This document shows, in pieces, positions 4,012 through 39,779 of a stretch of DNA of 48,515 bases. Origin of the DNA: a virus. The notes beneath the pieces were generated by a model. It had not been told where the DNA came from. It saw only the letters and a program-made list of their open reading frames with translations, and did not search any database. The translations under genes were made by a program, and so were the position numbers. The stretch lies in IMG/VR virus record IMGVR_UViG_3300042879_002447, positions 1-48,515 of that record; one strand, given 5' to 3'. Position 1 is the first letter of the stretch. Every line of letters starts with the position of its first letter.

Positions 4012-4792
4012 ACAAACTATTTCCGAATCTAAGTATCAAACCTTTAAACAGTGTAAGTTGAAGTATCGTTACCGCTACGTCGATAAGCTTCCTGAACCTG
4101 AAGAATCAAACACAGACGCGCTGCACTTTGGATCTTATGTCCACAAGATCTTTGAGAACGGAGTGAATGCAAAGACTCAGGACGAGTTGGTTCGTATCGC
4201 TGAAGAGGTAAGAGGCTCATACAGCGTATCAGAGAAGTACGATGGCAAAGATTTAAAGTGTATCGAGAATTTTGTTAAGTTCAATCAACAACTTAACGAA
4301 ACGGTAGCCACAGAGCTTACGTTTGAAGTTCAAGTAAAAGATGATATTACTCTAAATGGAGTAATTGATAGAATCGTCAAAGGTAAGGACGGTGGATATT
4401 TAATTATCGACTACAAGACTTCTAAGAAGGAAAAATCTAAAGTAGAGCTTTATCAAGACTCTCAGCTTAAGGGTTATGTATATGCTGTAAGTAAACTATA
4501 CAATGTGCCTTATTCAAATATTATTGCAGCACACTACTATCCTCTTACTGGATCTTTTGTCCATGTACAATATTCTGTGCCCCAGATAGGCTCTCATCTA
4601 AAAGCTATTGTAGATGAGGTTTGGAAGATTCGTAAGTGTAAGATGGAAGATATGAAGCCTAACCGTAATGATTTCTGTAACTGGTGCGCCTACAAGTCGG
4701 CGTGCCCTGAATTCAATTCTTTGGATGAAGTTACAAAGAAAGTTGATCAGCTAAAAGCTATCAAGGAATCTTCGGGTAAGACCCATAAATAA
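4004..4792 (+). CDS. Cas4/RecB-like PD-(D/E)XK exonuclease with Fe-S cluster
   Basis: A 262-residue nuclease of the PDDEXK_1/Cas4/AddB C-terminal type, expected to resect DNA ends in recombination or repair. Visible motifs: SxSKYQTFKQC at the N-terminus, H47 (GSYVHKIFE), D122 (GVIDRI), D136-Y-K138 (IIDYKTSK) and QLKGYVYAV near 154-162. Four cysteines C17, C225, C228 and C234 form the split C-Xn-C-X2-C-X5-C iron-sulphur signature of AddB/Cas4. The start is TTG 4004: it keeps the conserved SKYQ segment, has GAGGTG five bases upstream (3993-3998), and no ATG is available in this frame there. Overlaps the primase start divergently and the small minus gene convergently. No cas1/cas2 or repeats nearby, so this is a phage recombination nuclease rather than an adaptation gene. 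Confidence 0.87.
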   Translation: MYIQTISESKYQTFKQCKLKYRYRYVDKLPEPEESNTDALHFGSYVHKIFENGVNAKTQDELVRIAEEVRGSYSVSEKYDGKDLKCIENFVKFNQQLNETVATELTFEVQVKDDITLNGVIDRIVKGKDGGYLIIDYKTSKKEKSKVELYQDSQLKGYVYAVSKLYNVPYSNIIAAHYYPLTGSFVHVQYSVPQIGSHLKAIVDEVWKIRKCKMEDMKPNRNDFCNWCAYKSACPEFNSLDEVTKKVDQLKAIKESSGKTHK

Positions 4793-8612: not shown

Positions 8613-8914
8613 AAAATATAGAGACAGAATCAGGACCTTATAGTGTGGGATACCAAGACATATCTCATAGGGATGCCATTGTAAGAACTATATTTAATGA
8701 TAAAAGTTTTGATAGACTTATTCAAAATTTAGATACTACTTATGTATACGAGATTGGCTATGTTCCAGAAGGATATCAGCATAGGCCCGATCTTATCTCA
8801 AATGTATTTTATGGAACTCCTAAGTATTGGTGGTTGTTAATGCTTGTTAACAACATTACGGATCCTTTTGAAGGGTTTTACGTTGGTCAAAAAATAATGA
8901 TACCAAAGTTATGA
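8609..8914 (+). CDS. 53: Baseplate wedge protein gp53-like
   Basis: A 101-residue protein with the gp53 signature HRPDLISNVFYGTPKYWW, then LMLVNNITDPFEGFYVG and a terminal IMIPKL, the LysM-like end typical of this family. gp53 clamps the baseplate wedges to the hub. It is shorter than T4 gp53 (196 residues) and keeps mainly the conserved core. ATGA overlaps link it to both neighbours. Confidence 0.82.
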   Translation: MKNIETESGPYSVGYQDISHRDAIVRTIFNDKSFDRLIQNLDTTYVYEIGYVPEGYQHRPDLISNVFYGTPKYWWLLMLVNNITDPFEGFYVGQKIMIPKL

Positions 8915-29413: not shown

Positions 29414-32400
29414 TTGGCAGCGGAAAATCCCACATTTGGTTGCGGGGCTTTCCTTCCAGGATATGGTCCCTTCAGCTTTGAAGATTTTGATGATGGATTC
29501 TCTGTAGATATTCCAGATGATCCTCCAAATAATGGAGGTCCTTCTACACCTATAGAACCTGATATAGATACAGATTTAGGTACAACAGTTCCAGGTGTAC
29601 CAAATCCATCTACTCCAGGACTTGGAGACACAACTCCAACACCTCCAACAGGTAGCGGACCTTTAACTGGTGGAACATTTGTGTGTCGATGTAGAGTTGA
29701 TGGACCTCCTACAATTTCTTACACTTATGTTGGTGGAGATGGTTCTTTAGGGAGTGCAGGAACTATTTACACATATAGATGGAAACAAAAATGTAAATCA
29801 GTTAATGTTTCTGATACAAATACGTCAACTAATCAAGTAAACACCTATGTAAATAATATTTTACAAAGTAGACCTCAGTCTAGAGTATTATCTACTCAGG
29901 GTGTGGGTGATAAAAACTGTACTCAAAATGGAGCTTGTGGTGGTCCTTGTGAGGATTTAGTAGTAAATATATTTGTTCCAAGAGTTAGAATAATTACTCC
30001 TGATGCGCCCATTGGAACTGCGACTGTTACACCCCCTTCTGTCATTCCTGATGGGGGAGGAGGTGGTGGAGGTGGAGGTGGTGGACCTAATATATTCATT
30101 GATCAAGTTCCTACACGACCTGCTGGTACTGGATTATCAAATGTTGATACTGGTGGTGGAGGAGGAGGTGGAGGTGGAGGTGGAGGTGATGGTGGAGGTG
30201 GGGGTAATGGACCAATAATTATAATTGACCAAGTTACCACGCGACCTGCTGGTGGAGGAGTTACTGGAATTGATACTGGTGGCGGTGGAGGAGGTGGTGG
30301 TGGAGGTGGTGGTGGACCTTCTATATTCATTGATCAAGTTCCTACACGACCTGCTGGTGGTGGAGTTACTGGAATTGATACTGGTGGCGGTGGGGGTGGC
30401 GGCGGTGGAGGTGGTGGTGGACCTTCTATATTCATTGATCAAGTTCCTACACGACCTGCTGGTGGTGGATTATCGAATGTTGATACTGGTGGTGGTGGAG
30501 GTGGTGGACCAACCATTATCATCAATCAAACACCTGTGCGTCCAATTGGTCCTTCAGTTATTGGCGTAAACTCTCCAGCAGAACCTCCTTCTGTGGGAGA
30601 AGTAGATACTGAAATTTTAACTAATCAAATAGAATCTGCGGAAGCTGAATCTTCAATTGAGTTTTTCAATGGATTAAATGCAAATTTAATGGATTTAACA
30701 AATTCAAAAGTTGTTAATTATTTAATTTCAAATAATCCCACAGGGCTTCAGCCTTTAGGTGCTGCCATAATAACAGATTATAGAAAACCAAGATATGTTA
30801 AAAATGATGTAGGATTTTCCGATATTTTTGCAGATGTAATTGATTCCAATGTTTATTATGTTTTAAAAAATTACACAAATGCATTTGAAAAGTGGGATAG
30901 TAGTTATACCGCAGGAGTAACACCTATAGCAGTATACAATAGTTTAAATCCTGAAACTAGAAATATATTATCTCAAATAAAGAATTTTGATGGGACAAAA
31001 CTAAGTATAAATCAAATATTTGAAATAGTAGGAACAAGAGTTTTAGATGGTACTATAAGAACCTTAACTAAGTCTATCCTTCGTAAATTTTTAGAATATT
31101 CACAATCTACTACAATTTTAGAAATAAAAAGAAATGAATCAAATCTTATTAATGAGATATTTGCATCATTCCTAATAGATAAATTTAAATTTCCATTAGA
31201 TAGATCTAAAGTTAATGGTGTCATGAAACAGCTATTACCTAATTGGAAAACTTTATCATCTGATATTGATAGATATATTGAATTAAATGTTGATGGAGAA
31301 TTAAAAAGATATTATGTAAATGATGATGATACTTTTGTAGATAGAAGCACTTTATCCCTAAAGGATGGTGAATATTTTGATGTAAGAGTATCTGGAAAAG
31401 TTCAAAGACTCTATGCTAAATCAGAAAAGGATCATGCTTATTTAATTCCTGAGAATGTTAGACATAGTATTATTTCTTTATTAGGTGGAGATTCATCAAG
31501 AACTCTACAAGTTAGTGCCAGCCTATCTTCTACCATTGAATTTAATTATTCACTATCAGCACCTAGACAAAACTTTTATTTCCTTAGTTGCGTTTTAAGT
31601 TCAATTAACTCTTCTCCAGTTGAAGGTGTCTTATTACAAAAAACCTCTGCCGTATACAAACTAGCTGAAGCGTCATCTGTAGAAGGACTTAGTGCTATTA
31701 ATGCTTATATTAAATACAAAGCTAATCATAGAGTTTTTGTTCTAGATGATGAAGATATTATGTTGGATTACATAGAACAAACATCTTCAGTTACATTATC
31801 TCAAATGGATGTTATTTCTGATTCTCCAAAAGAAAATAAAGCAGTACCAATACTTACTAGACAAATACCTTGGTACATAATCATATATCCTACCAATAGA
31901 CCTGATTTTAATATATTTAACTCTATATCAAAAATTGATTCCATGCAAACGTCAGGAGCAGTATCAAGATCTTTAAAGTTTAAAACAGCGTTATCTCCAC
32001 AGTTAAATACAACAAATGGAAGTTTATTTGTAAAAAAAGAACTTGAAGGTATAAATTCACAAAATGTTTATCAAGAGACTGGTAATCAATTTAGATTCTA
32101 TAAAATTGATCCAGAAGCAGATATTTATAAAAAAGGATATGAGGACTCTGACGGAAATAAGTTAGAAGCTAAACAAGCTGTTAGAACTAGGCAAAAGTCT
32201 GGGTTTAGAATAGTTAAAGAAATTATTACAGAATTAGATAACAACTATTTACTAGATTTAAATGGATTGGGAAAAAACATAACAGAATTTGATGCGTTTA
32301 GTAGATTAAAGTTTACTGAGTTTAATAGATTGTTAGGACAAGAAAACTTTAGGTTAATTCGCAGTCAATTAAGAAAAGGTATCATAAATGACGTAAAGGT

Positions 32401-32518
32401 AATCCCAGTTATTAATAGAACTAGTAAAAATGTTACATTTAATAATACTCAAATTATTCAGAAAAAGACTGTAGCTCCCGCTGATGAGTTTGAAATAATC
32501 AAAGAATCTGGAATTTAG
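29414..32518 (+). CDS. Tail/adhesin-type protein with polyglycine repeat region
   Basis: A 1034-residue protein. TTG start 29414 is supported by AAGGGAG eight bases upstream and by its place two bases after the previous stop. Residues 1-85 are acidic and Pro/Gly-rich (IPDDPPNNGGP, TPTPPTGSGP). Residues 86-185 have several cysteines (CRCR, CGGPC). Residues 214-387 hold five units of (Gly)7-20-P-x-[IF]x[IF]-[DN]Q-x-P-x-RPxG (own entry). From about 390 to the end it is a helix-rich, charged structural domain. Polyglycine helices are the fold of the T4-group gp38 adhesin tip, but there they lie at the C-terminus; here they look like a spacer or arm. It closes the fibre block. Confidence 0.65.
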   Translation: MAAENPTFGCGAFLPGYGPFSFEDFDDGFSVDIPDDPPNNGGPSTPIEPDIDTDLGTTVPGVPNPSTPGLGDTTPTPPTGSGPLTGGTFVCRCRVDGPPTISYTYVGGDGSLGSAGTIYTYRWKQKCKSVNVSDTNTSTNQVNTYVNNILQSRPQSRVLSTQGVGDKNCTQNGACGGPCEDLVVNIFVPRVRIITPDAPIGTATVTPPSVIPDGGGGGGGGGGGPNIFIDQVPTRPAGTGLSNVDTGGGGGGGGGGGGDGGGGGNGPIIIIDQVTTRPAGGGVTGIDTGGGGGGGGGGGGGPSIFIDQVPTRPAGGGVTGIDTGGGGGGGGGGGGGPSIFIDQVPTRPAGGGLSNVDTGGGGGGGPTIIINQTPVRPIGPSVIGVNSPAEPPSVGEVDTEILTNQIESAEAESSIEFFNGLNANLMDLTNSKVVNYLISNNPTGLQPLGAAIITDYRKPRYVKNDVGFSDIFADVIDSNVYYVLKNYTNAFEKWDSSYTAGVTPIAVYNSLNPETRNILSQIKNFDGTKLSINQIFEIVGTRVLDGTIRTLTKSILRKFLEYSQSTTILEIKRNESNLINEIFASFLIDKFKFPLDRSKVNGVMKQLLPNWKTLSSDIDRYIELNVDGELKRYYVNDDDTFVDRSTLSLKDGEYFDVRVSGKVQRLYAKSEKDHAYLIPENVRHSIISLLGGDSSRTLQVSASLSSTIEFNYSLSAPRQNFYFLSCVLSSINSSPVEGVLLQKTSAVYKLAEASSVEGLSAINAYIKYKANHRVFVLDDEDIMLDYIEQTSSVTLSQMDVISDSPKENKAVPILTRQIPWYIIIYPTNRPDFNIFNSISKIDSMQTSGAVSRSLKFKTALSPQLNTTNGSLFVKKELEGINSQNVYQETGNQFRFYKIDPEADIYKKGYEDSDGNKLEAKQAVRTRQKSGFRIVKEIITELDNNYLLDLNGLGKNITEFDAFSRLKFTEFNRLLGQENFRLIRSQLRKGIINDVKVIPVINRTSKNVTFNNTQIIQKKTVAPADEFEIIKESGI
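30053..30574 (+). repeat. Five-unit polyglycine/PxIFIDQ tandem repeat
   Basis: Units start (proline codon) at 30086, 30212, 30317, 30422 and 30509; spacings are 126, 105, 105 and 87 bases, all multiples of three. Each has a GGT/GGA run coding 7-20 glycines (one run broken by Asp and Asn), then a module like PSIFIDQVPTRPAGGG and a [VI]DTG tail. Units 3 and 4 are nearly identical at the DNA level, pointing to recent unequal exchange. The reverse strand gives long polyproline open frames that are artefacts of the same repeat. Confidence 0.9.
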
Positions 32519-33652: not shown

Positions 33653-34068
33653 AAATAACAGAAGCCATTGATAATATTAACGAAGCGCGAGGCTCTAAAT
33701 CTGGTAGAGAAGTCTACGGATCTAAAGAAGGAACCAAGCGTAATGTTAAGAAAGCATTCAAAGGCAGAGTTGTAACATTTGATAGTATTAGAGACGCTTT
33801 GAATGATGGTAAATATGGACAAATATTTACTACAAAAGCAGCAGGTCGTTTATATGTAATCTCAAAAGGAAAATGGGGAGCTAAGAGCGGACGAGGTAAA
33901 ATCGCAAAAGGATTTACACCAGGAAGCTCAACACCTTCTTCTGGTTGGGATAGCATAAAGAAACACGCTGCAAGAACAACTCTACGTTATGGTGGAGGCT
34001 CCGATAAATTAGCTCAAAAATATGGAAGTAGATCTATCAAGAAAGAGCGAGGTCTAAAGTATAAATAA
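33649..34068 (+). CDS. Basic internal head protein (putative, 139 aa)
   Basis: A strongly basic protein (many Lys/Arg, Gly/Ser-rich C-terminal half) starting MKITEAIDNINEARGSKSG. Two [LI]-x-E sites (ITE5 and INE12) lie at the very start, the arrangement of T4 internal proteins, whose short N-terminal capsid-targeting peptide is removed by gp21. The middle (GRVVTFDSIRDAL, YGQIFTTKAAGRLYVISKG) could be a small folded domain. Its end shares a base with the ATG of the protease gene. Inferred to be packaged with, or to bind, the genome. Confidence 0.6.
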   Translation: MKITEAIDNINEARGSKSGREVYGSKEGTKRNVKKAFKGRVVTFDSIRDALNDGKYGQIFTTKAAGRLYVISKGKWGAKSGRGKIAKGFTPGSSTPSSGWDSIKKHAARTTLRYGGGSDKLAQKYGSRSIKKERGLKYK

Positions 34069-35363
34069 TGCAGTTACTACAAGATGTATTCATAATAGAA
34101 AAACTTCAAGTTCTTAACGAGGGAGCAGCTAAAGACACCATGAGAATTCGTGGCGTATTTGGTCGCTGTAACGAAAAGAATAATAATGGACGTATATATC
34201 CTACGTCTGTTTTAGAAAGCCAACTAAAGAAAGTTCAACCTTTAATTCAAGAGCGTAGACTTTGTGGTGAATTAGATCACCCATCAAATGATACCGTAAA
34301 ACTTTCCAATGCTTCACACTTAATTACGAAGCTTGAAATAAAAGGTAATGAACTCATAGGTGAAGCAGAGATCCTCAAGACTCCTGCTGGTTTAACTGCA
34401 AAGGCTTTAATAGATGGCGGCGTTCGTATTGGTATTTCTTCCCGTGGTATGGGTACACTCTCTGAAGATGCCCAAGGTAATAAAATCGTTAATGAAGATT
34501 TCAGATTAGTTACGTTTGATCTTGTAGCTGATCCATCTACAAGGGGAGCGTTCCCATCATTAGCTGAGTCTACTCAATCACGTTTTGTAAGAGAGTCTCA
34601 AACCAAGTTACAAAAAGAAAGTAACTTTGTAACTTTGCTTAGATCAAAGTTGAGAGAAGAATATGCTTTAGTATTAACTGAGAAAGGTCCTCGACCCCCA
34701 CCTCCACCTCCATCTCCATCTCCATCTCCACTTCCACCACAACAACCATCACCTTCTGGACCACCTTCTGGACCAGATGATGCTGATCCAGAAGAAGAAC
34801 AATTCCAGAAATATATGAGTAGATATCAAGCTATGGCTATGGCTCAACCACAACCTTCTACTGGAAATATATTTAAAGATTACATAGCAAGATATCATCA
34901 GCAAAAAAGTATTGAGAATTTAGCTCAAGCTAGAGCTAGAGGAGAAGGGCAAGCTCAGAAAATTAAACTACAAAATGCTGAAAGAGCCAAGCGAAGAGCG
35001 GCTGCTGGTGCTGCTGGTGCTCCAACTTTAGCCCGTGACTGGCTTAATTGGAGAAAAGCTAAAGTAGGAATAGGAAGAGGAATAGCTCACCTTACTGGAA
35101 AACCTCTTACAACATCAACAGAATATGCTCGTATAGGTAAGATATTAGCAGAAGCTTTGTTTACCAAGATAGGTAAAGGTAAATTTGGTATGGTGTCAAC
35201 TCCAAAAAAAGCAGGAGGTAAGGCATCAGTATTCCGTAGTCCAACAGGAAAAGAAGGCGAAGAAAAGGTATTAACAACGAGTGCTAGAGTAGTTAAAACT
35301 TCTACAAAGCGTGCTGATCAATGGGAGAAAGCTGCTAAGAAAAGAGAAGGCGAAAAAGACTAA
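34068..35363 (+). CDS. 21: Prohead protease (gp21-like) with long C-terminal extension
   Basis: Residues 1-205 are a T4 gp21-type (S80/U9) serine protease that matures the prohead: GRCNEKNNNGRIYP (32-45), GELDHP with catalytic H71, SH at 83-84, GISSRGMG with S124/S125, and FDLVADPSTRG (150-160). [LI]-x-E sites at IIE11 and LNE18 could be autocleavage sites. T4 gp21 is only about 212 residues; here a Pro/Ser-rich linker (about 205-235, PPPPPPSPSPSP) joins ~195 further residues that are basic and Ala/Lys-rich. That extension contains YARIGKILAEALF (about 353-365), nearly the same peptide as starts two small head proteins nearby. Cutting after E362 would release a 69-residue basic peptide. Confidence 0.88.
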   Translation: MQLLQDVFIIEKLQVLNEGAAKDTMRIRGVFGRCNEKNNNGRIYPTSVLESQLKKVQPLIQERRLCGELDHPSNDTVKLSNASHLITKLEIKGNELIGEAEILKTPAGLTAKALIDGGVRIGISSRGMGTLSEDAQGNKIVNEDFRLVTFDLVADPSTRGAFPSLAESTQSRFVRESQTKLQKESNFVTLLRSKLREEYALVLTEKGPRPPPPPPSPSPSPLPPQQPSPSGPPSGPDDADPEEEQFQKYMSRYQAMAMAQPQPSTGNIFKDYIARYHQQKSIENLAQARARGEGQAQKIKLQNAERAKRRAAAGAAGAPTLARDWLNWRKAKVGIGRGIAHLTGKPLTTSTEYARIGKILAEALFTKIGKGKFGMVSTPKKAGGKASVFRSPTGKEGEEKVLTTSARVVKTSTKRADQWEKAAKKREGEKD

Positions 35364-35365
35364 TT

Positions 35366-35671
35366 ATGAACAATACTTATAAAAATATAGGCTTAATTAT
35401 AGCCGAGGCTTTAAATTTAGTTGAAAAAAATTACTCAGTAGATCCTGATGATAAATATAAGGAACAACAAAATGTTCATGGACGCTCCAGAAAATCTAGA
35501 TTTGAGACTCGCGGGGGAAAAGAATATGCTATGGACTACGATGAAGATCCAAATGCTCCTAAAGGAACTATTAAAATTCGCAGACGTACAATAACGGCAC
35601 ATAGACCTACTGGATCTAAAGAACCTTTTACCCCAGTAAAACCTAAATCAGAACGCAAAAAGTCCACATAA
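35366..35671 (+). CDS. Small basic head protein with capsid-targeting-like peptide
   Basis: A 101-residue protein beginning MNNTYKNIGLIIAEALNLVE. The segment TYKNIGLIIAEAL (4-16) matches the motif in the protease extension and in the protein at 39204. A gp21-type cut after E14 would leave an 87-residue basic protein (RSRKSRFETRGG, KIRRRTITAHRP, KSERKKST). It follows the protease gene by two bases. By analogy with T4 internal proteins it is probably packed into the prohead and may enter the cell with the DNA. Confidence 0.62.
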   Translation: MNNTYKNIGLIIAEALNLVEKNYSVDPDDKYKEQQNVHGRSRKSRFETRGGKEYAMDYDEDPNAPKGTIKIRRRTITAHRPTGSKEPFTPVKPKSERKKST

Positions 35672-35747: not shown

Positions 35748-36395
35748 ATGAATAAATTAAAGAATATTGCTGATATTCTTCCCGAAGGACTTGATCAGTC
35801 TACTGTTGAAGCTATTTTCCGATTAGTAGACAATACAATAAATGATCAGGTTAATGAGAAGATTGGTTTACTTGAGGCAAAAGTTAGTGCCTATCTAAGA
35901 ACCAAAGTTGATCAGCTAAAAGAACAAGCTCTTACTGAGCTAAGTGAAGAGAACGAAGTATTCCGTAATGCTCGCCTCTTTGAATCGGTAAGAACTTTAA
36001 TGGCTCTAGAACTTAGTGATGCTGATGAAACAAATGCTCTTTCTGAGATGACCGAACAACACGGAGAACTTCAGGAAGAGTTTGACGTTTTAACTGAACA
36101 AGTTAATAAACTTGTCATTGAAAACGAAAAGCTTCAAGGCACTATTAAGGTTCTCAAGGATAAAGTTTCCCTAACGGAGGGTACTGTTGAGAAACTCAAG
36201 GGTCAAAAAGCACAACTTCTCGAAGAAGTTGAGAATCTTGTGGCTGCTAAGGATGAGGCTTTTAAGTCCTCTGAACAAGCAGTGGTGGTATCCAAAGCGG
36301 ATAAAGTTATCACCGAAGAAAAGGTAAATTTAAGAAATAATACCTTTTTAACTGATGAGGTCATGAAGTTCATGCCCTTCTCCCCAAAAAATTAA
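35748..36395 (+). CDS. 22: Prohead core scaffold protein (gp22-like)
   Basis: A 215-residue, acidic, almost entirely coiled-coil protein (EQHGELQEEFDVLTEQVNKL, then VIENEKLQGTIKVLKDKV and LKGQKAQLLEEVENLVAAK). It sits directly between the protease and the major capsid protein, the fixed place of T4 gp22. Several [LI]-x-E sites (ILPE13, LLE near 43-45) fit its expected digestion by the protease. Good AGGAG ribosome binding site. Shorter than T4 gp22 (269). Confidence 0.85.
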   Translation: MNKLKNIADILPEGLDQSTVEAIFRLVDNTINDQVNEKIGLLEAKVSAYLRTKVDQLKEQALTELSEENEVFRNARLFESVRTLMALELSDADETNALSEMTEQHGELQEEFDVLTEQVNKLVIENEKLQGTIKVLKDKVSLTEGTVEKLKGQKAQLLEEVENLVAAKDEAFKSSEQAVVVSKADKVITEEKVNLRNNTFLTDEVMKFMPFSPKN

Positions 36396-36408: not shown

Positions 36409-38064
36409 ATGGATATAATGCATCGTACTGATGATACGTTGGTCCAGAAGTGGGAGCCTGTCCTTGAGGGCATCGGCAACGAGTACACTCGTCGTGTAAC
36501 GGCTCAACTTCTTGAGAACCAAGCAAGAGCAATTGTTCAAGAGCGAATTAACGAAGATATTACAACAAACACCACCACAACTGGTCAACTTGGCGTCTTC
36601 CAAAAGTTTGCTTTCCCTCTAGTTCGTAGAGTTTACCCCGAGCTAATCGCTAACAAGATCGTTGGTGTTCAGCCTATGCAGGGACCTGTTTCGCAAGTCT
36701 TCTACTTAGGTAACACCCGCGCTATTGGTGGCTCTCGTCAAACGGTTTACAGCAAGTTTAACCTAACTTATAAGGGTGGTGCTGCATATCCAATAGGATC
36801 ACTTCAGCATAATGCTATTGGAGCAGCCCTTAGTCAAGGTACATATAGAACTGCGGCAGGAGCATTAGCTCTTTCTGGTCCAGGTCTAGACGGTGATTTT
36901 GCTTCCAACGGGTTTGACGTATCAAACGTCCTAAACACTCTAAGCGGTTCTACGCAACTAGTAGGTGCGGGCGCTCCTTCGGGTACATTTGGTGGTCAAA
37001 TTGCTGCTTGGCCTAACGTAAGCGCAATTTATGGATACTCATTATCAGCAGGTGAGCGTCTAACTGGAACAGGCATCCCTGAGATGACATTCCACATCGA
37101 GCAAGAGGCAGTTGTGGCAAATACTCGTAAGATGCGTGCATTGTGGACTCTTGAAGCTTCGCAAGATCTCAAGGCTTATCACAATCTCGATCTAGAGCGT
37201 GAACTAACTGAACTTCTCTCAAAGGAACTTCAACTTGAAATAGACCGAGAACTCATAGAAGATCTTCGCATGATCGCTTATGGGTTCCGTAACCGTACTT
37301 TAGGTGGTGTAAACCAAAACCTAATGGATAACGATTATGTTTCACTAGGAGGATTCCCTGGTGTTAAGTCTAACCATGTTGTAGAGGATTTTGTTCCACA
37401 ACAGTTTACCTACGACTTTAACGGTGGGGAAGGTACTGGAACAGCTAAAGAATATGGTGGAGTTCTTACCTCATCAGGATCAAACGTCTTTATTATAGAC
37501 TTTGGTCAACAATCATTAAGTATGTATCCTCGCCACGTTGGTGAAGTTTATGCAAACCTCCTAGCACTAATCAACTTAGCTGCTCAGGACATTCACCGTA
37601 CCACAATGCGGGGTCCTGGTAACTGGCTACTAACCTCACCACTAGTTGCATCGCTCCTCGAAAGTGCTGCCAAGCTAGAAGGTGGTATCGCCCGCGAAGA
37701 TGGTCCAACAAACATGGGTGCCAACAGCATTCAGTTCAAGGGCAAGTTCATGGGTCGCTACGATCTCTATGTTGATCCCATGTTCCCACAAGACGAAATT
37801 CTTGTAGGCTATAAGGGTTCAAATGCTATGGACTCTGGATTCATCTACGCTCCATACATCCCACTACAACAGTTACCAACAATCACTGATCCTGAATCTT
37901 TCCAACCAAGAAAGGGTATTCTCACCCGCTATGGTAAGGTTCAGATTCAGCCCTACAACAGATTCTATAGAATGATCAGAATCGTTGGCCCAACGGCTAA
38001 CTACCTCTTCACACCATTTGCTAGAAATACTCAGACACTAAATAACACTAACTTCGGTTACTAG
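36409..38064 (+). CDS. 23: Major capsid protein (gp23-like)
   Basis: A 551-residue HK97-fold capsid protein of gp23 type; T4 gp23 is 521. Typical segments: FPLVRRVYPELIANKIVGVQ and QPMQGPVSQVFYLG in the N-arm region, FHIEQEAVVANTRKMRALWT, LDLERELTELLSKELQLEID, and a C-terminal RMIRIVGPTANYLF. A propeptide is likely: INE49/D50 (also VLE20/G and LLE36/N) fits the [LI]-x-E cleavage rule, near T4's E65. Codons differ from the tail genes (more C-ending codons such as CTC, AAC and CGC), as expected of the most highly expressed gene. AAGGGA precedes ATG 36409. A strong hairpin follows. Confidence 0.93.
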   Translation: MDIMHRTDDTLVQKWEPVLEGIGNEYTRRVTAQLLENQARAIVQERINEDITTNTTTTGQLGVFQKFAFPLVRRVYPELIANKIVGVQPMQGPVSQVFYLGNTRAIGGSRQTVYSKFNLTYKGGAAYPIGSLQHNAIGAALSQGTYRTAAGALALSGPGLDGDFASNGFDVSNVLNTLSGSTQLVGAGAPSGTFGGQIAAWPNVSAIYGYSLSAGERLTGTGIPEMTFHIEQEAVVANTRKMRALWTLEASQDLKAYHNLDLERELTELLSKELQLEIDRELIEDLRMIAYGFRNRTLGGVNQNLMDNDYVSLGGFPGVKSNHVVEDFVPQQFTYDFNGGEGTGTAKEYGGVLTSSGSNVFIIDFGQQSLSMYPRHVGEVYANLLALINLAAQDIHRTTMRGPGNWLLTSPLVASLLESAAKLEGGIAREDGPTNMGANSIQFKGKFMGRYDLYVDPMFPQDEILVGYKGSNAMDSGFIYAPYIPLQQLPTITDPESFQPRKGILTRYGKVQIQPYNRFYRMIRIVGPTANYLFTPFARNTQTLNNTNFGY

Positions 38065-38321: not shown

Positions 38322-39194
38322 ATGGTAGTAAAAGTAGATCCAATGTTACTATATTATGGAGATACATTCGGAACCTATGCTGGTAGAAACTTAGGTGATA
38401 CCGATATTTACTCCACGGCTATTGATTCTTCTAAATTAAACACAGGTACTTTTGAAGATGGTATTGAATTAAATAACTTTGAAAAGACTATAAAAGATTT
38501 TATATTAGCTCGTTTAGGTTATCCTGTTGTAAGAGTTGAGTTAACAGACTTCCAAATTAAGACCGCTATAGATGAAGCCATAACAAATCTAGACTATCAT
38601 GCTCCATTCTGGACTACTCAAATGGCTGCATTTGATACAATAGCGGATGTTAATATGTATATGCTTCCAACCCATATTGCTTATAATTTAAGCTACTGTG
38701 TATACAAAAAATCATTATTAAGTTTCCAAAATATGGCTGGGACACTTGAGTTTGATTTCTTCATTAAATATTTCCAAGATAACTTTTTAATGTCTAATTT
38801 TAATGTTTCTGATTTCTATTTAATGCAAATGAATTTAGAAATGATCAGAAAGGTATTGAGTCAAGAAGGTTCTTGGGATATAATAAATGGTAATATTCTA
38901 CAACTATACCCTGCTCCAGCAGTGAATGGTGAGACAGTTATCGTAGTTTATAGAGGGTTAGATACAGCTACGATGCATCCTTACTATAAAAACTGGATTC
39001 AAAGATTCGCTCTTGCTGTTGCTAAGGGTATCCTTGGCGAAATAAGAGGAAAGTATTCTTCACTCCCATCTCCTGGGGGTGGAGCTACATTAAACGGTAA
39101 AGACTTGCTTTCAGCAAGCCAGCAGGAGAAAGAAAAACTTAAAGAGGAGCTACTATATGAAATAGAAGAGCCTCCAGTATTTACATTATTCTAA
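38322..39194 (+). CDS. 13: Neck protein gp13-like
   Basis: A 290-residue protein resembling T4 gp13 (309), which completes the head and receives the tail. Recognisable: FILARLGYPVVRVELTDFQI (about 65-84), a following helical EAITNLDYHA, WIQRFALAVAKGILGEIRGK (about 226-245), the glycine turn LPSPGGGATLNGKDLL, and a charged helix QQEKEKLKEELLYEIEEPP near the end. Lies after the capsid gene and upstream of gp14/gp15-like genes. Confidence 0.75.
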   Translation: MVVKVDPMLLYYGDTFGTYAGRNLGDTDIYSTAIDSSKLNTGTFEDGIELNNFEKTIKDFILARLGYPVVRVELTDFQIKTAIDEAITNLDYHAPFWTTQMAAFDTIADVNMYMLPTHIAYNLSYCVYKKSLLSFQNMAGTLEFDFFIKYFQDNFLMSNFNVSDFYLMQMNLEMIRKVLSQEGSWDIINGNILQLYPAPAVNGETVIVVYRGLDTATMHPYYKNWIQRFALAVAKGILGEIRGKYSSLPSPGGGATLNGKDLLSASQQEKEKLKEELLYEIEEPPVFTLF

Positions 39195-39203
39195 AGGACT
39201 ATT

Positions 39204-39548
39204 ATGAAAAATCAAAAAGGAAAAAAGGATTTAGCAGGATTATACCCACCATACGATAAGATTACCAGAGGTGATGTTATTGCTGGAAGAATTGGGAAAA
39301 AGAAAAAGATGCAGGATTGGACAGTTTATCATCAACTAGGTATTCACTTAGCGGAAGCTTTGGGGGTGGTTGCAGAACAGAAGGAACACCCTGATAAAGA
39401 AGAAGCTGAACGCTTTTCAAAAATGAGCGATAAGCAACTAAAGGAGCGTCCTGGAAAAGTTGATAATATGTCAGGAATAAAAGCTGCTGCAAAAAGAGCA
39501 GCAGCAAGAGGAGCTAAAAATGTTCCTCAATCAAAAAGACCTTACTAA
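39204..39548 (+). CDS. Basic head protein with internal targeting-like peptide (114 aa)
   Basis: A 114-residue, very basic protein. VYHQLGIHLAEAL (41-53) matches the peptide in the protease extension and in the protein at 35366; a gp21-type cut would fall after E51. The ~40 residues before it are also basic (GRIGKKKKMQD), and the C-terminus is a basic Ala/Lys/Arg helix (GIKAAAKRAAARGAKNVP). Unlike T4 internal proteins the site is not N-terminal, so both halves might be released. AAAGGACT precedes the ATG. Likely a DNA-binding internal protein. Confidence 0.6.
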   Translation: MKNQKGKKDLAGLYPPYDKITRGDVIAGRIGKKKKMQDWTVYHQLGIHLAEALGVVAEQKEHPDKEEAERFSKMSDKQLKERPGKVDNMSGIKAAAKRAAARGAKNVPQSKRPY

Positions 39549-39551
39549 GGT

Positions 39552-39779
39552 ATGAGTTTATTTATAAATAAAATAAAACAAATTCTTGTAGAAACAAGAT
39601 CAAAAGCATTAAAAAGATCTTTATCTAAAAGAATGCAGAGATTTACGGGACCTTCTGGACAAACTGAAAAACACACAGTTGTTCAAGGTTCTAAAGGTAG
39701 CCACGAAGAAAGACGCAAGCGTAGAGAGAAAACCAATCCTACAATTAGTAATCCCAAGTCTACAGTAGAAGTTGATTGA
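39552..39779 (+). CDS. Small basic head protein (75 aa)
   Basis: A 75-residue, strongly basic protein. Starts MSLFINKIKQILVETRSKAL, with ILVE14 or the shorter L-V-E as a possible gp21-type cut. The rest is Arg/Lys/Ser-rich (KRSLSKRMQRF, EERRKRREKT). It belongs with the other small basic proteins of the head block and overlaps the gp14-like gene (TGATG). Its match to the targeting motif is weaker than at 35366 and 39204. Confidence 0.58.
   Translation: MSLFINKIKQILVETRSKALKRSLSKRMQRFTGPSGQTEKHTVVQGSKGSHEERRKRREKTNPTISNPKSTVEVD

Follow-up and report, generated by a model that had tools for sequence, protein, structure and literature searches.

A prohead protease of a T4-like virus with a basic tail built from modules shared with separate cargo-like genes

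In a 48,515-base virus record from an uncultivated T4-like virus of bacteria, hereafter the window, we find that the gene for the gp21-type prohead protease continues in frame into a long basic tail, and that this tail carries a short peptide that also marks separate cargo-like genes of the same virus. The open reading frame (34068-35363, + strand) encodes 431 aa in a single frame with no internal stop, compared with 212 aa in the T4 gp21 record, a difference in length that the earlier note on this DNA had given correctly. From the in-frame fusion and the motif shared with other genes, from modules that alternate between fused and separate genes, from the constraint on one of them and from the candidate cleavage site at the tail junction we infer, with a probability of about 0.6, that the tail docks both the protease and basic cargo at the prohead core and that self-cleavage removes the tail afterwards. 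The fusion is firm; the mechanism is our interpretation of it.

The window enzyme belongs to the gp21 family on all counts examined, namely Pfam, catalytic residues, fold and position. Residues 20-171 match Peptidase_S77 (E 1.7e-24; 86.9 bits against a cut-off of 27), and the open reading frame matches phrog_207 (E 8.9e-51). Residues 1-156 of the predicted structure superpose on T4 gp21 (5jbl) with Z 19.4 and an rmsd of 2.3 over 151 residues, and Foldseek relates the protease model to the same structure (E 3.9e-13). In an alignment of 19 gp21 sequences from the clade and from named phages, H71, S124, D151 and E167 are invariant; we take the first three, from their alignment with T4, to be the catalytic triad, and the catalytic domain closes at E167 in LAE followed by S. 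Downstream lie a gp22-like gene, whose match to the Pfam phi29 scaffold model falls just under the cut-off of that model, and then gp23, which is the T4 order (table 1). Upstream, within a 1034-aa open reading frame (29414-32518), positions 30056-30507 hold repeat units of 105-126 bases in tandem, which code for Gly-rich stretches that alternate with IFIDQVPTRPAGG-like units.

Table 1. Positions of the protease parts and neighboring head genes in the window; a slash marks a candidate cut and L numbers are loci from our scans
Feature	Position	Strand	Basis or remark
gp21-type catalytic domain, residues 1-167	34068..34568	+	Peptidase_S77, phrog_207, alignment, model
Juxta-catalytic helix, residues 177-205, closing with LTE205/K	34596..34682	+	model; [LI]xE in 26/29 tails
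Variable basic middle, residues 206-352	34683..35123	+	includes Pro/Ser linker; aligns poorly to L004
Pro/Ser microsatellite linker	34689-34775	+	CCTCCA repeat
Docking/cleavage-like motif YARIGKILAE, residues 353-362	35124..35153	+	regex, leave-out HMM; candidate cut after E362
C-terminal cargo module, residues 363-431, 69 aa	35154..35360	+	free-standing gene in L034
Separate basic cargo-like gene between gp21 and gp22, motif at residues 5-14	35366..35671	+	motif HMM i-E 2e-8; regex
gp22-like scaffold	35748..36395	+	synteny, between gp21 and gp23
gp23 major capsid protein	36409..38064	+	Pfam PF07068 E 4.2e-80
Head-tail adaptor gene	38322-39194		phrog_211 E 2.4e-22
Second separate cargo-like gene directly 3' of adaptor gene, motif at residues 42-51	39204..39548	+	motif HMM i-E 7.9e-8

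The tail that follows E167 comprises 264 aa with a pI of 10.2 and a net charge of +22, and it is composed of successive modules, not of a single domain. The earlier note had described a Pro/Ser linker leading into a basic domain; the linker is present and the tail is basic, but the linker is a CCTCCA microsatellite, a run of at least four Pro being found in only two of the 29 different tails that we collected (window and L002), and the single domain gives way to modules. Next to the catalytic domain lies a conserved helix, FVTLLRSKLREEY, which spans residues 177-206 in the model and by eye resembles the last helix of short-tailed relatives (YLTALRRLLNEN) and of T4 (AYMALAEAMKKAL); because of this likeness the long tail appears to be an addition onto the ancestral C-terminus. 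The helix ends in LTE205 (residues 203-205; codon 205 has its first base at 34680, and the sequence after E205 is KGPRPPPPPPSPSPSPLPP). An [LI]xE sequence occurs at this junction in 26 of the 29 tails, although single sites of this kind are weak evidence because the motif is so short. LTE205 and not LAE362 is thus the most conserved candidate cut site; the earlier note had pointed to the latter, which is indeed present (I359-L360-A361-E362, then A363), and had missed the former. The motif around E362 is predicted as a helix at low confidence, with a mean pLDDT of 59 and 47 in its two blocks.

A first scan of viral contigs yielded 34 loci. Leaving out L034, in which frames are broken throughout, and adding the window gave 34 tails, 29 of which are different; the tails of L022 and L023, near-identical but for one unresolved residue, are counted as two of the 29, and that of L010, which runs to the end of its contig, is counted at its visible length. 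A comparison with gp21 homologs had been proposed as a check on the window, and in it the extension recurs: the 29 tails follow the same catalytic domain, are 86-669 residues long and are all net positive (+2 to +76), with A, K, G and R making up about 47% of their residues. Every close relative carries a tail. In six of the 29 (L006, L007, L009, L012, L015 and L026) the variable tail opens with strings of the EF-hand-like DxDxDGxI type. A sequencing frameshift that joined two genes, the artefact that the earlier note had named as a possible explanation, is rejected because the tail is in frame, L004 has the same module in frame and under purifying selection (pN/pS 0.13), and all close relatives are tailed.

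A second scan with the clade alignment picked out 599 stretches with the pattern; 495 of them code for relatives. Among the best 80 of these 495, which were kept, are 17 distant sequences (L119-L135, 44-50% identity) with tails of only 33-35 residues, none of which (0/17) has the motif described below, and 30 further sequences that are long-tailed or, in one case, open-ended. In a tree of 73 sequences, built without L034 (broken frames), L062 (open end), T4 and ValKK3 (L045 and L047), the 54 long-tailed sequences form one group (support 87/82, not starred), long being defined by a threshold of 60 residues that alone places S-SSM7 in this class. Beside this group stand 14 sequences with tails of 33-35 residues, the root of the tree being arbitrary.

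The earlier note was not aware of this layout from any member of the classical T4 group, and named phages fit this statement: in 15 of 18 loci from named phages the protease is 210-244 aa long, and in a 16th it measures 184 aa from the first Met, the start being uncertain. The two longer ones differ in kind. In Prevotella phage Lak-A1 (L050 2863-4650) the gp21-like protease measures 584 aa and ends in a long tail that is acidic and rich in Asp and Glu. Desulfovibrio phage 7757 (L052 1678-3429) has a gp21-like open reading frame of 583 aa with an insert inside the catalytic domain; the insert follows GELNHPS, starts with Cys and ends in LTGN before Ser, and its sequence suggests that the prohead protease here contains an intein. 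Inspection by eye led us to reject both as extensions of the same type. The tails of the window and of L016 had no match in 50,697 phage records, and none of 2514 records from named phages has a protease at least 60% identical to that of the window. We recognized no paper describing such a tail among titles and abstract openings, a survey that lay outside subscription papers and preprints.

The peptide that links the tail to other genes can be written as Y..IG..LAEA. This regular expression matches 33 times in 23 of the 29 tails; 1000 shuffles gave 0.05 matches on average and never more than two. This test is post hoc because the expression was written after the tails had been inspected. A leave-out HMM is fairer. 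It was built from 21 copies in the protease tails of other contigs, with the window and its near relative L004 excluded; 20 of these copies have L or I at P3 and E at P1, and one has M at P3. Among 145 window open reading frames of at least 40 aa, exactly three matched at an i-E below 1, namely those at 35366-35671 (2e-8) and 39204-39548 (7.9e-8) and the protease tail (2.7e-5), while the best score among the reversed window frames was 0.65. The claim that ILAE362 followed by A belongs to a motif common to neighboring genes is thereby borne out. Among 1797 non-protease open reading frames of the relatives there were 30 matches at E of 1 or less and 22 below 0.01, with a single match at 1.5 in the reversed control. 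Many of these motif-bearing frames sit between gp21 and gp22 or just 3' of the adaptor gene. The latter place is used in many loci and corresponds to 39204-39779 in the window, a second cargo site after the adaptor gene; the cargo frames there are motif-bearing, basic and of very different lengths. Six Synechococcus phage records contain a stretch similar to part of residues 4-32 of the frame at 39204-39548.

Each of the 23 motif tails has one or two copies. The residues that follow the motif number 50-76 in most and more in others, and in six of the 23, two of which are L022 and L023, only 3-7 residues remain. The motif was not found by the regular expression in six of the 29 tails; among the 30 further long-tailed or open-ended sequences it occurs in ten (several of them copies of one another) and is lacking in 20, and for these reasons we regard it as largely a subclade feature. 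In the window protease it ends in a gp21-type L/I-X-E site and lies at residues 353-362 of 431; in other cargo frames it is often internal and not N-terminal. The HMM scored at most 0.2 bits against T4 IPIII (-2.9 bits) and the T4 gp21 C-terminus, a comparison in which a 10-residue peptide has little power, and the likeness to both is by eye alone.

Parts of the tail also exist as separate genes. The last module of the window is a gene of its own in L034 (10932-11189), where it begins directly after a stop codon and is 87% identical over 78 residues that include the motif (E 4.9e-34); this agrees with the description of the fused part as cargo-like in the earlier note. Because L034 is error-prone, its gp23 frames being broken as well, the free gene in this case rests on one contig. 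In the independent contig L004 the module is fused and 91.6% identical over 83 residues, and the homology between window and L004 begins four residues before the motif, upstream of which the sequences differ. The end of the L028 tail has a counterpart in a free 290-aa gene that is present in L030, L031 and L032 (46%, E 1.7e-7), and a segment of the L005 tail matches a free gene of L004 (64% over 33 residues, E 3e-5) that corresponds in position to window 35366-35671. Because pieces of three tails match free genes, cargo genes alternate between fused and separate forms. Between window and L004 the pN/pS is 0.13 for the module and 0.11 for the catalytic domain, and for the window module against the free L034 gene it is 0.26.

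Among the 53 loci in which we tabulated the interval between gp21 and gp22, a gp22-type motif was not found in 17 (14 long-tailed, 3 short-tailed). The interval is about 90-132 nt in 27 of the 34 long-tailed loci that have this motif, and it is longer, with small open reading frames, in the window, L004, L022, L029, L030, L061 and L103. Free genes occupy it in the window and five relatives, of which L029, L030 and L061 are short-tailed. In three of five split forms examined, 7-10 consecutive A residues are found no more than about 32 nt from the stop codon of the protease (L029 near 8750-8762, L030 near 2512-2525, L096 near 4718-4750), and a downstream cargo frame is open in another frame across or just after this run; L061 and L094 have no such run near the protease stop. 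Because these are frame changes at poly-A, some splits could be sequence errors, although the L030 junction is identical in L031 and L032 and that case thus agrees in three contigs; an indel, a sequence error or slippage are all possible. One tentative extension of these observations, which we put forward at low confidence, is that the gp21-gp22 slot is a hypervariable cargo site where modules are recombined at the motif into a self-processing polyprotein, with the docking peptide as a common, position-independent address, and that in some viruses poly-A slippage or indels may limit cargo to a fraction of the protease molecules.

Our reading of the tail draws on T4. In T4, cleavage follows L/I-X-E, and the internal proteins reach the core by means of a targeting peptide at their N-terminus, which is removed afterwards. 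The propeptides of gp21 are suggested to work in the same way, and the reason for autocleavage at the gp21 termini, together with the question whether the propeptides recruit the enzyme to the prohead core, is counted among the major gaps (PMC9026906, accessible parts). The window protease and T4 gp21 share the catalytic domain, its catalytic residues and fold, the gp22/gp23 gene order and candidate [LI]xE sites, and C-terminal processing is to be expected; T4 gp21, however, has 25 residues after ITE187, whereas here up to 669 residues in basic modules lie past the equivalent site. Like the IPIII targeting sequence, the motif is a short I/L-A-E peptide followed by A that marks basic head proteins, is N-terminal in the gene at 35366-35671 and has the L/I-X-E end of T4 capsid targeting sequences. 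Unlike that sequence it is longer, often internal or C-terminal and carried on the protease, where it lacks the N-terminal position, and it has no significant sequence match to T4.

We propose that the extension came about when one or several head-cargo modules were joined to the prohead protease by translational fusion, and that each of them carries a helix-like peptide Y-x-x-I-G-x-x-L-A-E-A that is also the mark of separate basic cargo genes in these viruses. By analogy with the T4 targeting sequence this peptide would bind the prohead core, so that protease and basic cargo enter the head. The active protease would then cut itself after [LI]-x-E, at LTE205 in the junction and at LAE362 in the docking peptide; this would free the catalytic domain from the core and leave two basic pieces, of about 157 and 69 residues, within the head. 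The earlier note had envisaged the freeing of a 69-residue C-terminal peptide. The 69 residues behind E362 are there, but release of such a peptide cannot be the general purpose of the tail because several relatives end right after the motif, and the same tails favor docking as the role that tails would share, with cargo as an extra.

The tail could instead be a core tether or assembly part, like the scaffold half of herpesvirus pUL26, that is destroyed at maturation and delivers no cargo. The two proteins have in common an N-terminal protease, a release site, candidate here, and a second site near the end, so that the layout of protease, linker, tail and second candidate site resembles the R- and M-sites of pUL26 (PMC4498786, as far as that source was available), and the six tails with the motif at the extreme C-terminus have no cargo behind it. 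In pUL26, however, the tail is the scaffold and has a nested start, whereas here a separate gp22-like gene is present whose size is constant (212-220 aa in the listed loci), so that the tail does not replace the scaffold and we rejected it as a gp22 substitute; its modules match free basic genes and not gp22. Of 31 motif instances, two (L005 and, weakly, L007) have a start with a Shine-Dalgarno-like signal in the 25 codons that precede the motif, and a nested internal start as a general device was rejected. In L005, an AGGA-type ribosome-binding sequence with an ATG at about codons 440-442, two codons before the motif, looks as if the start of a cargo gene had been retained. We consider a tether without cargo unlikely, yet a serious competitor.

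It is improbable that the tail serves mainly as a basic polypeptide that binds DNA in the manner of histones or IPs and helps to condense the packaged DNA, the fusion only securing its copy number. All tails are basic and rich in A, K, G and R, and T4 internal proteins, themselves basic, bound DNA at low salt (PMC9026906, accessible parts); on the other hand, tail charge varies from +2 to +76, and a family search with the tail alone returned a single weak PHROG match (E 0.069) and no DNA-binding family. This reading is compatible with docking and cargo delivery, and the two do not exclude each other. We give very little credence to the view that the extension is disordered, for the most part neutral and simply tolerated while it drifts in length and sequence. 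The tail middle has a pN/pS of 0.87 against L004 (28% identity, poor alignment) and 0.91 against L002, values that come from alignments of 28-37% identity, and low pLDDT and the microsatellite linker point the same way; but the module with its motif is under purifying selection, the L006 and L009 tails compare at a pN/pS of 0.36, and the motif is far above chance.

A prohead protease with a C-terminal propeptide is already known. SPN3US gp245 of the phiKZ group (Peptidase S80) cleaves off its own C-terminal propeptide of 64 residues in vivo, in particles (PMC10052503; earlier work, PMC5694885; both in their accessible parts), and such cleavage is a candidate event here; the phiKZ-group proteases differ in their A-X-E specificity, and the accessible parts of PMC10052503 make no mention of a modular cargo tail. 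By analogy, the window tail would act like a C-terminal propeptide and, if it docks as we propose, also like a targeting peptide, the cargo-module tail being the new form. In this virus the protease seems to be naturally fused to just that peptide by which the cargo-like genes are marked. This natural fusion makes the idea that gp21 propeptides serve in targeting directly testable and, if the idea is true, would provide address tags, natural and swappable, with which proteins could be loaded into phage heads.
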